Positions 9,019-13,315 of a stretch of DNA of 64,000 bases are shown piece after piece. The notes beneath the pieces are model-generated. The model was not told where the DNA came from, ran no database searches, and saw only the letters and a list, made by a program, of their open reading frames with translations. This DNA comes from Rubrobacter aplysinae (GTDB lineage Bacteria; Actinomycetota; Rubrobacteria; Rubrobacterales; Rubrobacteraceae), in assembly GCF_001029505.1 (NCBI RefSeq), contig NZ_LEKH01000008.1:62001-126000 (forward strand), written 5' to 3'. How positions within the stretch are numbered: position 1 is the stretch's first letter; each line of letters opens with the position of its first letter. Both the position numbers and the translations under genes were made by a program.

Positions 9019-9870
9019 TTAGGCCCCGCCGGGGTACGCCTCCGGGCGGCGGTTCAGGAGCGAGGGGAACTCGGTGCGGAAGCGCCGCAGGTATTCGATG
9101 TCGAGGTCCGCGAGGGCGTAGCCGTCGCGGTCCGGGCAGGTGGCGAGCACCGTACCCCAGGGGTCCACGATCATGGACCGCCCGTAGGTCCAGCGACCGT
9201 CGGCCTTCTGTCCCCACTGGGCCGGGGCGATCACGTACGCTTGGTTCTCGACGGCCCGGGCGCGGAGCAGTAGCTCCCAGTGGTCCTTGCCGGTCTGGAG
9301 GGTGAAAGCCGCCGGTACCGCCAGCGCCTCCGCCCCGTCCAGCGCGAGCGAGCGGTAAAGCTCCGGGAAGCGCACGTCGTAGCAGACGGAGAGCCCGAGC
9401 CTCGCGCCTCCGGCGTCCGCCGTCACCACCTCCGAGCCGGGGGCCATAGAGGCGCTTTCAAGATACTCCCGGTCCGGGGCCTTCACGTCAAAGAGGTGGA
9501 CCTTGCGGTACACGGCGGTCAACGCGCCGGAAGGAGCGAAGAACGTGGAAGTGTTGTACATCTTCTCCGAGCCGCCGACGCTCTCCAGGATCGAGCCCCC
9601 GAGGAGGTACACGCCAAGCTCTCGGGCAAGACCGCCGAGGAAGTCGGTCGTGGGTCCGGGGACCGGCTCGGCGGCCTCCAGGTAGGCATTTTCGAGGCCG
9701 TGACAGCTCCACAACTCGGGGAGGGCGATGAGCCGCGCACCGGAGGCGGCGGCGGACCGGATCAGGGCCTCCGCGGTCGCCTTGTTCTCTTCCTTGTCCG
9801 GGGTGGACGACATCTGTATGGCCGCCGTCAGCATGTTGAGTCCCCTGTCTGTATCCGGCGTATCCGGCAT
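9019..9870 (-). CDS. Carbon-nitrogen hydrolase (nitrilase superfamily, omega-amidase-like)
   Basis: Cytosolic amidase of the nitrilase fold. The Glu-Lys-Cys triad is visible as LPEL (Glu52), VYRKVHLFD (Lys123) and SVCYDVRFPELYR (Cys163), numbered from the chosen start. The last motif is typical of the Nit1/Nit2 branch, which deaminates omega-amides of keto acids or deaminated glutathione. Start ATG at 9870 has GGGAGG five bases upstream; a frame seven codons longer lacks such a site. The N-terminus (MPDTPDTDRG) contains a 9-bp coding repeat. It converges with the permease gene, 8 bp apart. Confidence 0.92.
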   Translation of the reverse strand: MPDTPDTDRGLNMLTAAIQMSSTPDKEENKATAEALIRSAAASGARLIALPELWSCHGLENAYLEAAEPVPGPTTDFLGGLARELGVYLLGGSILESVGGSEKMYNTSTFFAPSGALTAVYRKVHLFDVKAPDREYLESASMAPGSEVVTADAGGARLGLSVCYDVRFPELYRSLALDGAEALAVPAAFTLQTGKDHWELLLRARAVENQAYVIAPAQWGQKADGRWTYGRSMIVDPWGTVLATCPDRDGYALADLDIEYLRRFRTEFPSLLNRRPEAYPGGA

Positions 9871-9893
9871 CCAGCCTCCCTGGTGATCCACAC

Positions 9894-9990: not shown

Positions 9991-12069
9991 TTACGCTGGC
10001 GTCGTAGGGTCCGGCTCGCCGAGCACGGAGACCTCATACCCCGCCTTGCTCCGATATTTGACCCTGTACATCGCGGCGTCGGCCTCACTCAACAGATTCT
10101 CCGGGAGATACTTCTGGGCGCGGCCTGGCGGGACCACGGCGACCCCGAGGCTGACCGTGATCGAGGCCCGCCCGGCATCCTCCCCGAGATCCAGCGGCCC
10201 CTGCAAAGCTCCGATAATCCTCTCCGATAGGGCCGCGCTCTCGGTCTCGCCGGTGTTTTCCAGCATCAGGACGAACTCGTCTCCGCCCAGCCGGCAGATG
10301 GTGTCTCCCGGCCTCAAACACTCGCTCAGGCGTCCGGCGACTGCCCTGAGAAGCCTGTCTCCGGCCTCGTGGCCGCTACTGTCGTTGATCTTCTTGAAGT
10401 CATCCAGGTCCATGAAGAGTACGGAGACGGGCTCCTCGCGACGGCTGGCGCGGGCCAGGGCATTATCCAGCCTGTCCATAAAGAGGCTCCGGTTGGGCAG
10501 CTCCGTCAGAGAGTCGTGAAAGGCCCGGTAAGAAAGCTCCTCTTCGAGCATCCGGCGTTCGGTCACGTCGTTCTGGATGCCGACGAAGTTCGTCAGGTTC
10601 CCCGCAGCGTCCCGGACGGGGGCGACGTAGAGCTCATTGTAGAAAAAGGTGCCGTCTTTTCTGTAGTTGCGAATGGTGCATGAGTACTCCCGGCCGGCGG
10701 CTATGGCCTCGGCCAGGGCGGCTAGCTCCGGCTGCTCCCGGTCTTCACTCTGAAAGATCCGGCAGTTGCGCCCGAGTATCTCCTCCGGCTCGTAGCCACT
10801 CAACCTCTGGAAGGCGGGGTTTACGTAGATTATCGGGTTGTCTTCCAGGCTGGGATCCGTGATCAGCACCCCGTTAGAGCTGGCCTCTAGCGCCCGATCC
10901 TTCATCCGGCTCTGGGCCTCGGCCAACCGGCGCTCGGTAACGTCGATGGCGATACAAACCGCCCCCTCGACCCTGCCGGACTCCCCGAGTAACGGGGAGT
11001 AGCGAGTCTCGAAGTAGGAGCCGTGGTGCTCGACGGTATCCGCGACCTCCTCGCCCGCCAGCACCCGCCGGTTGTTCTCCAGTATCCTGGGCTCGTCGCG
11101 GTGCAGCTCGAAGACCGAATGGCCCACGACCTCGTTCTGTCCGGCTCCGAGCGCCGCGAGCCCCTGACCCTCGGATAAGGTAAAAACACCCTCCGAGTCC
11201 AGGGCAAACAGGACCACGGGCGCCCCGCTGGCGACGACCCGCCGCAGTTGCTCGCTCTCGCGCAGGCTCCTCTCCGCCTCCCGGCGCTCTGTGATGTCCC
11301 GGGCGTGCACGATCACGCCCTCCACGCCGGGCTCGTCCAGCAGGTAGGTCCCGACGCCCTCTATCCAGCGATAAGACCCGTCGGCCCCCAGGAAACGATA
11401 CTCCGTCGTATGCCCGAAGGGTCTGTCTGGCGGGTCGTCTGCCGGACCGTCCGGCGGTTCGCCAACCGCCTCGCCGGAGTCCAACCTGACGAGTGTCCGC
11501 CGGGTGTCTTCTACGACCCGGGGTAGGTCTTCGGGATGAATGTAGTCCAGGACGTTCATCCCGGCGGCGACGGACTCGGCCGGATCGTAGCCGTAGACCT
11601 CCTTGAAGGCCGGGTTCGCGTACAGCAACTTGCCCGTCGTGGAGACCAACTTGACTACCTCGAGAGAGCTTTCCACGATGGCCCGGAACCGCCGCTCGCT
11701 CTCGAAAAGGGCCCGGCGCGCCTCTAAGCGCCCGGTCACGTCCCGCGAGCTACACACTATCTCCGTCGCCCCGGACCCCGATATGGCGCTGGTGCAAACC
11801 GTCTCCAGCCAGCGCCAGGAGCCGTCCCGGCGCAGCCAGCGGAGCTCTAAAGGGAGACTCGCACCGGGCTCGCTCGTGGACTCGCGGAAAGCTCTCTCGC
11901 CCGCCGCCATGTCTTCAGGGTGGATAAAGTCCAGCACGCTCCAGCCGACCATCCCGTCGGCCGGGATACCGAGCACCCTCTCGGCTCCGGCGCTCTGGGC
12001 CACGACGATACCGCTGGCGTCAACGACCGTTACGAGGTCCCAGACCCCGCTCTCAAGCTCTCTACTCAC
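9991..12069 (-). CDS. Multi-PAS sensor diguanylate cyclase with a LOV-type domain
   Basis: A 692-residue sensor predicted to make c-di-GMP. Order: PAS (about 10-115), PAS (130-265), PAS (270-385), a LOV-like PAS (395-505), GGDEF (525-680). The cyclase core is intact: GGDEF at residues 595-599 with an RPGD inhibitory I-site five residues before it, so product feedback is expected. The fourth sensor has the blue-light signature GRNCRIFQ with the photoactive-type cysteine at Cys436, plus NYRKDG, FYNELYVAPV and VGIQNDVTER, which match flavin-contacting positions of LOV domains. No transmembrane segment is seen, so it should be cytosolic. No EAL or PilZ partner lies nearby. PAS ligands 1-3 are unknown. 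Confidence 0.93.
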   Translation of the reverse strand: MSRELESGVWDLVTVVDASGIVVAQSAGAERVLGIPADGMVGWSVLDFIHPEDMAAGERAFRESTSEPGASLPLELRWLRRDGSWRWLETVCTSAISGSGATEIVCSSRDVTGRLEARRALFESERRFRAIVESSLEVVKLVSTTGKLLYANPAFKEVYGYDPAESVAAGMNVLDYIHPEDLPRVVEDTRRTLVRLDSGEAVGEPPDGPADDPPDRPFGHTTEYRFLGADGSYRWIEGVGTYLLDEPGVEGVIVHARDITERREAERSLRESEQLRRVVASGAPVVLFALDSEGVFTLSEGQGLAALGAGQNEVVGHSVFELHRDEPRILENNRRVLAGEEVADTVEHHGSYFETRYSPLLGESGRVEGAVCIAIDVTERRLAEAQSRMKDRALEASSNGVLITDPSLEDNPIIYVNPAFQRLSGYEPEEILGRNCRIFQSEDREQPELAALAEAIAAGREYSCTIRNYRKDGTFFYNELYVAPVRDAAGNLTNFVGIQNDVTERRMLEEELSYRAFHDSLTELPNRSLFMDRLDNALARASRREEPVSVLFMDLDDFKKINDSSGHEAGDRLLRAVAGRLSECLRPGDTICRLGGDEFVLMLENTGETESAALSERIIGALQGPLDLGEDAGRASITVSLGVAVVPPGRAQKYLPENLLSEADAAMYRVKYRSKAGYEVSVLGEPDPTTPA

Positions 12070-12382: not shown

Positions 12383-13315
12383 CTACTCCCCGGAGGTAGT
12401 TCCGGAGGGACGGTCGGGGAGGCGCATCCGGTACTCCAGCACGTCCCCGGGCTCCAGAGCGGGGAGCGCGAGATGGTGGCGGGCCGTCTGGAGCAGCGCC
12501 TCCAGGGGCATGAGCCCTATGAGCTCTGTAGACTCAACCCGCGCCCCGCGCTCGGCGGCGAGCTCCCGCACGCGCTCTACGGCGGTCGGGAGCGAGGTCT
12601 TGGAGAGGTCCACGAGGTTCATCGAGACCTGGGCCTTTCCGGCGACCGGGAGGCCGATCGCCTTGACCCCGAGCATCCCACCGTCGCGTTCGCGCAGGCG
12701 GGCCGCAATGTCCCGCGCCACCCCCACGTCGGCGGTGTCGAGAAAAGCGTTGTAGGCGACGAGAAACGGCCTGGCCCCGACGACGACGGCGCCGAGCGCG
12801 GGATTCAGTTCGGCAGGGCCGTAGTCCGGCCTCCAGCCCTCTTCCCCGGCACGGGCCGCGAGACCCTCGTAGCCACCGCGCCGGATCTCGGCCAGGTTAC
12901 GACGGTGCGGGGCGGTGGCGGCCGACTCGTACAGGTACACGCCGAAGCCGAGCCCGCCGATCCTCTCCCCGGCCCGTCTGGCGAGCCGGGCCGCATCCTC
13001 CAGCGTCGCGCCTTCGAGCGGCACGAAGGGCAGCACGTCCAGCGAGCCGACCCGAGGGTGCTCGCCGGTCTGGGTGGAGAGGTCTATCTCTTCGGCGCAG
13101 GCCCGGGCAAGCGCGGTGGCGGCCTCCAGGAGCGGCTCCTCTTCCCCGGCCAGGGTGAGCACGCTCCGGTTGTGGTCCGCGTCGCTCGTGAGCCCGAGCA
13201 CGCGCACTCCGGGCACGGCGCGCACCCTTCCGGCGATGCGCTCCACCTTTGCAGGGTCCCGGCCCTCGCTAAAGTTCGGGACCGCCTCGAACAGGCGCGG
13301 CTGCCCTTCCGCCAT
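12383..13315 (-). CDS. ftcD: Glutamate formimidoyltransferase
   Basis: This enzyme moves the formimino group of N-formimino-L-glutamate to tetrahydrofolate during histidine breakdown. The 310 residues cover only the transferase half; there is no cyclodeaminase domain. Landmarks are FEAVPNFSEGRD at the N-terminus, SDADHNRSVLTLAG, TGEHPRVGSLDVLPFVPL, and the late substrate-binding VSMNLVDLSKTSL and ELIGLMP. ATG start has GGAGGT upstream. No hut genes are adjacent; the next gene upstream is a GH15 enzyme only 16 bp away, so it may share that transcript. Confidence 0.94.
   Translation of the reverse strand: MAEGQPRLFEAVPNFSEGRDPAKVERIAGRVRAVPGVRVLGLTSDADHNRSVLTLAGEEEPLLEAATALARACAEEIDLSTQTGEHPRVGSLDVLPFVPLEGATLEDAARLARRAGERIGGLGFGVYLYESAATAPHRRNLAEIRRGGYEGLAARAGEEGWRPDYGPAELNPALGAVVVGARPFLVAYNAFLDTADVGVARDIAARLRERDGGMLGVKAIGLPVAGKAQVSMNLVDLSKTSLPTAVERVRELAAERGARVESTELIGLMPLEALLQTARHHLALPALEPGDVLEYRMRLPDRPSGTTSGE

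Follow-up and report, generated by a model that had tools for sequence, protein, structure and literature searches.

Four LOV-activated diguanylate cyclases (LadC), two of them with a 21-residue linker, have been characterised and all are activated by light (PMC10396304). The short-linker enzymes AoLadC and DpLadC, in which 21 residues connect the two domains, were activated approximately 15-fold in vitro, while a long-linker LadC, with 35 residues, displays more than 10,000-fold switching (PMC10396304). Here we describe a gene of Rubrobacter aplysinae, located in a 64,000-nucleotide stretch of the genome (hereafter the window), which probably encodes a soluble, dimeric, blue-light-regulated diguanylate cyclase that receives three extra PAS inputs. 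Such an enzyme would add the Rubrobacter family to the lineages in which light controls c-di-GMP synthesis; a literature search combining Rubrobacter and LOV returned incidental matches only.

Pfam divides the 692-residue protein into four PAS stretches and one GGDEF domain (Table 1). The start cannot be situated far 5' of the GTG codon, as an in-frame stop is located six codons before it. The gene is preceded by 313 intergenic bases and has neighbours on the same strand on both sides, a formiminotransferase gene (12383-13315) and a carbon-nitrogen hydrolase gene (9019-9891). A sigma-70 promoter scan around the gene and an RNA family search of the whole window both returned no matches.

Table 1. 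Features of the LOV-GGDEF gene, in window coordinates
Feature	Position	Strand	Basis
Whole gene, 692 aa, GTG start, PAS-PAS-PAS-LOV-GGDEF	9991..12069	minus	ORF translation, Pfam
PAS1 (residues 8-115)	11725..12048	minus	Pfam; genus-mate alignment, weak conservation (35%); PDB search without LOV matches
PAS2 (residues 127-268)	11266..11691	minus	Pfam, PDB search, alignment
PAS3 (residues 274-383), sensor best kept in genus-mate (66%)	10921..11250	minus	Pfam, PDB search, alignment
LOV (residues 385-506)	10552..10917	minus	PDB search, LOV profile, predicted structure
LOV-GGDEF linker, 21 residues (D501 of DVT to L521 of DSLT)	10507..10569	minus	Count as in PMC10396304; helix in predicted model
GGDEF diguanylate cyclase domain (residues 514-680), motif GGDEF 595-599	10030..10530	minus	Pfam 150.7 bits; alignment; PDB matches including PleD
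I-site RxxD (RPGD, residues 586-589), site of product inhibition, ends five residues ahead of GGDEF	10303..10314	minus	Motif

Judged by its sequence, the fourth sensor domain is a LOV domain, with a similarity to this class that lies far beyond chance. When the domain alone was searched against the PDB the best matches were almost all solved LOV photoreceptors (E down to 5e-31), the first of which include PF5-LOV, Meiothermus LOV, PpSB2-LOV, aureochrome and YtvA. The matches of PAS1-3 were weak in E-value and fell on period/ARNT-like and sensor-kinase PAS domains; none to a LOV domain was convincing, PAS2 reaching Brucella LOV-HK only at an E of at least 0.002. A profile built from 63 LOV domains of the Rubrobacteraceae, with the source genus left out, gave a score of 184 bits for the fourth domain and of 2-11 bits for the three preceding ones, while with a non-LOV PAS profile the fourth domain reached 122 bits; for PAS1 and PAS2 the order of the two profiles was reversed. 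The cysteine of the GxNC motif (C436; codon 10764-10762, minus strand), which would form the flavin adduct, is present together with the flavin-contacting polar residues N435, R437, Q440, R444, N468, N478 and Q499, among them the Asn/Asn/Gln contacts by which LOV domains are recognised. The initial annotation had proposed, from short motifs, a LOV domain at 10480-10890 fused to a cyclase. All the quoted motifs are there (GRNCRIFQ 433-440, at 10773-10750; NYRKDG 468-473; FYNEL 476-480; GIQND 497-501), and the PDB matches and the LOV profile place the Cys436 region with LOV families and not with other PAS domains. The extent of the domain needed revision, being slightly wider at the upstream end (Table 1).

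The fold predicted for the protein points in the same direction. Homologs aligned only to single domains, MAFFT stacked PAS fragments on the LOV columns, and the AlphaFold2 model (40 sequences) was limited to the LOV-GGDEF part, residues 376-692, where the mean pLDDT was 93. A Foldseek search of this model against PDB chains gave as its first match MsLadC (8c05), a LOV-activated diguanylate cyclase (E 1.7e-28). In agreement with the assignment by sequence, the LOV part superposed on the solved LOV domain of Brucella (6ph2) at 1.1-1.2 Å over 117 columns (TM 0.90 of the target). VIA-align, in which the LOV part was barely sampled, matched the model mostly to GGDEF structures. Sequence, profile and predicted fold together bear out the fusion of LOV to GGDEF.

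The flavin pocket of the domain is atypical, a point that the initial annotation did not raise. Residues 438 and 439 are Ile-Phe, where nearly all LOV domains contain Phe-Leu, and Phe at 439 is unique to this protein among 65 distinct family LOV domains; when 396 Actinomycetota genomes were scanned with a DNA pattern the Phe form was found once, in this gene, and the canonical form at 61 sites in 42 genomes. Position 453, which is Arg in 60 of the 65 family domains, is Ala here, which removes one arginine from the cluster that binds the FMN phosphate, and the only other Ala occurs in the ortholog of a genus-mate. Between these two orthologs 17 of the 20 pocket positions are identical, compared with 51 of 95 elsewhere in the LOV domain (p = 0.008), the list of pocket positions following AsLOV2 numbering. 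In PpSB1-LOV the equivalent of F439 (L56) touches the FMN ribityl chain or phosphate, the equivalent of A453 (R70) is one of four phosphate-binding arginines, and mutation of R61 and R66 accelerated dark recovery 280-fold (PMC5314338). In the protein described here R61 is retained as R444, and the position of R66 is occupied by L449. It is fair to infer that the photocycle is altered, and perhaps faster, and the rare substitutions make this natural pocket useful for photocycle studies. The atypical pocket is also the reason why strict published LOV motif filters reject the protein, which contains seven of nine highly conserved LOV residues where a heuristic search filter demands at least eight (PMC9098866), the two misses being I438 for F64 and F439 for L65 of YtvA.

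Other variants of the pocket were observed in passing. LOV-like PAS-GGDEF proteins of Methylomonas/Methylomicrobium (L040-L042) carry GRNLSFLQ and GIIDD, lack the cysteine and the I-beta glutamine, and provide a natural non-photochemical comparison. In three family genomes (G034, G015 and G003; loci L125, L168 and L161, respectively) a LOV domain located directly before GGDEF has Ala in place of the Gln of NCRFLQ (NCRVLA/NCRFLA).

The output domain had been described as an intact GGDEF with an I-site, and both are indeed present. GGDEF, DLDDFKKIND, GHEAGD, the Lys of AMYRVK and RPGD are all retained, as are the catalytic columns that are invariant in a 40-sequence GGDEF alignment, so that the active-site motif and the metal and GTP residues expected of a diguanylate cyclase are complete. 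The linker between LOV and GGDEF comprises 21 residues, as it does in all seven direct LOV-GGDEF fusions among the family loci. With respect to the LadC definition (PMC10396304), the motifs N(Y/F)xxx(G/D)xx(F/L)xN, DxLT and GG(D/E)EF are found as NYRKDGTFFYN, DSLT and GGDEF, and the linker has one of the two defining lengths (21 or 35 residues). The protein is nevertheless excluded by the filter of that study, as it contains three extra PAS domains, and FQRLSGY and GRNCRIFQ each depart from the motif at one position. We therefore describe it as working like a short-linker LadC and not as a LadC.

Photoactivity and light control of c-di-GMP synthesis are inferred from these features, and a plausible sequence of events can be proposed. 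The LOV domain would bind FMN, and blue light would generate the C436-flavin adduct. Q499 and strand I-beta may relay the adduct signal to the linker, where a shift in coiled-coil register would change how the two GGDEF domains of the dimer face each other. By analogy with the short-linker LadC enzymes, light would most likely boost the cyclase modestly, in the region of 15-fold, and not act as an all-or-none switch. The N-terminal PAS1-3, linked to LOV through the A'-alpha helix, would add other inputs, so that the enzyme probably responds to several signals, light among them; the amount of product would be capped by the I-site.

It could be argued that the same photoreceptor acts with the opposite sign, such that blue light represses a cyclase that is active in darkness. 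A LOV-GGDEF fragment from Mesorhizobium loti behaved in this way in Escherichia coli, where blue light lowered the reporter from 145 to 30 Miller units (PMC9098866), and the sign is hard to predict because linker registers are of near-equal stability (PMC10396304). As all four characterised LadC enzymes, including the two with the linker length seen here, are activated by light (PMC10396304), we consider repression unlikely, although it deserves some weight. An alternative that starts from the pocket is that the LOV domain has drifted, binding flavin poorly or reverting too fast, and that control has passed to PAS1-3 or to redox or flavin sensing. The rarity of I438-F439 and A453, whose counterparts in PpSB1-LOV contact the FMN ribityl chain or phosphate (PMC5314338), is what such drift might produce, as is the shortfall of one residue in the published filter. 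Decay, however, should first remove C436, both Asn residues, Q440 and Q499, all of which are retained, and the cysteine-less LOV-like PAS-GGDEF proteins that do exist (L040-L042) differ from this one. Furthermore, the pocket positions are better conserved between the two orthologs than the rest of the domain, which makes a loss of photoactivity less likely. Drift is, in our view, improbable.

Doubt might also be directed at the output, in that the GGDEF domain could be a receptor module for c-di-GMP or GTP and not a cyclase. The C-terminal motif does depart from the usual form (VKYRSKAG in place of AKxxGxN), but the preservation of the catalytic motifs and the I-site, together with the Pfam score of the domain (Table 1), renders this reading very improbable. 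The c-di-GMP receptors found in the source genome (see below) also count in favour of a cyclase. We thus favour a blue-light-regulated diguanylate cyclase, most likely activated by light.

The suggestion in the initial annotation that a LOV-GGDEF enzyme with three further PAS domains is uncommon in this lineage was too strong. The ortholog in the genus-mate (G001, the sole genus-mate compared) has the same PAS-PAS-PAS-LOV-GGDEF order, with identities of 58% in LOV, 66% in PAS3 and 35% in PAS1, and 38 of the 39 family genomes, among them all 22 of good quality, encode LOV domains. Many of these domains reside in LOV-GAF-SpoIIE phosphatases and LOV histidine kinases, and often also in multi-PAS c-di-GMP proteins; outside the genus the next-best relatives, among those examined at full length, are LOV-GGDEF-EAL proteins. 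In the source genome itself, each of the three clear LOV domains belongs to a c-di-GMP protein, the first being the window enzyme. The second protein, on contig 5 (L148:286-3621), is MHYT-PAS-GGDEF-EAL-LOV-PAS, and the third, on contig 3, is PAS-LOV-multi-PAS-GGDEF-EAL. The contig 5 protein is a membrane protein in which the light sensor follows the output domains, and it has NCRFLH instead of NCRFLQ.

The LOV phosphatase typical of the family seems to be absent from the source genome. A PAS-GAF-SpoIIE protein on contig 2 (L189:364-2106) has the layout of the widespread LOV-GAF-SpoIIE proteins, and its first domain carries no LOV signature. A decayed LOV domain in this counterpart was considered and rejected, as the first domain lacks the LOV motif. 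At G000:C6:172185-172471, a LOV/PAS query is matched in halves by two short frames lying side by side (L006, L008), which may be the parts of a PAS gene interrupted by a frameshift.

The source genome encodes 12 GGDEF and 6 EAL domains, and a PilZ search of it returned no match. Candidate receptors of other types are present. They comprise a WhiG sigma factor, for which a PDB search ranked a chain named WhiG (7lq4) first, a PilB-type ATPase that contains an MshEN domain and is encoded next to pilT- and pilC-like genes, and two c-di-GMP-I riboswitches. Riboswitch 1 (C8:56604-56733, minus strand; L210:2605-2734) is on the contig of the LOV-GGDEF gene, 15 kb away and just outside the window, approximately 42 bases before a gene encoding a secreted subtilase; riboswitch 2 (C12:31352-31482, minus strand; L211:3352-3482) leads a beta-helix protein gene flanked by apparent sugar-nucleotide genes. 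The c-di-GMP produced might possibly act on WhiG through its anti-sigma partner, on the two riboswitches and on the pilus extension ATPase with its MshEN domain. Type IV pili, c-di-GMP riboswitches and the sigma factor WhiG, which are known or visible in Rubrobacter, may in this way be linked to blue light.

A scan for WhiG/flagellar-type promoters, with spacings of 14-16 and covering about 1.8 Mb of the 3.19-Mb genome, showed that both riboswitch leaders lie directly downstream of a match (TAAA-N16-xCCGATAA, spacing 16, one mismatch each). As such a promoter precedes the riboswitch, c-di-GMP could act twice on one transcript, at the promoter through RsiG-WhiG and again in the leader. The other two LOV genes also have WhiG-type promoters, with zero mismatches on contig 3 (L149:2247-2274) and one on contig 5 (L148:71-98), and among 13 GGDEF/EAL genes of the source genome these are the only two that do; the window gene has none, even at two mismatches. 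Within the 1.8 Mb, with up to one mismatch allowed, the pattern occurs at 17 distinct places and its reverse at 3, and a scan of 400 kb of a related complete genome (G008) gave no matches. Across the family, the promoter precedes 5 of 11 LOV genes with a recognisable GGDEF/EAL output, none of 17 with a PP2C output, none of 8 with a HisKA_3-type kinase output and 2 of 16 unclassified LOV genes (the two appear to encode hybrid histidine kinases), compared with 2 of 375 control frames. A search for an RsiG motif in the same 1.8 Mb of the source genome revealed no candidate. It is conceivable, if rather doubtful, that the components form a closed circuit, in which blue light would act on the three LOV enzymes, and c-di-GMP on an RsiG/WhiG promoter and a class-I riboswitch carried by the same transcripts, two of the enzymes being WhiG-dependent and the window enzyme, whose atypical pocket may cycle fast, serving as an input independent of WhiG. 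LOV and riboswitches do not come up in the main text of the WhiG paper, and the association of WhiG promoter, riboswitch and LOV outside the window is the more unusual lead.

The architecture of the window enzyme is not unique, and the protein adds to the known LOV-GGDEF kind a member with an unusual pocket and stacked sensors. In common with AoLadC and DpLadC, GGDEF follows LOV directly through a 21-residue linker, and the adduct cysteine and the DxLT and GGDEF motifs are present. These enzymes, however, consist of one LOV and one GGDEF domain only, whereas three PAS domains precede LOV here, Ser replaces Thr in FxxxT (FQRLSGY) and Phe replaces Leu in CRFLQ (NCRIFQ); the I-site is also absent from AoLadC. 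MsLadC shares the domain order and was the first structural match, but its 35-residue linker permits caging, a conformation that 21 residues should not allow (PMC10396304). The LOV-deltaQ-GGDEF-EAL protein of M. loti (WP_140774521.1) similarly contains a LOV-controlled GGDEF within a larger protein (PMC9098866), although the I-beta glutamine is missing there and an EAL domain is present, while the Rubrobacter enzyme retains Q499 and has no EAL. Of the LOV domains whose photochemistry is known, those of YtvA and the short LOV proteins PpSB1 and PpSB2 are among the nearest by sequence and fold, but they serve other outputs, and the pocket described here differs in I438, F439 and A453, and in L449 at the position of PpSB1 R66. 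Finally, the LOV-GAF-SpoIIE (PP2C) proteins of the Rubrobacteraceae come from the same genome family and contain a related LOV domain (about 60% identity), which in those proteins is coupled to a phosphatase and not, as here, to a cyclase.
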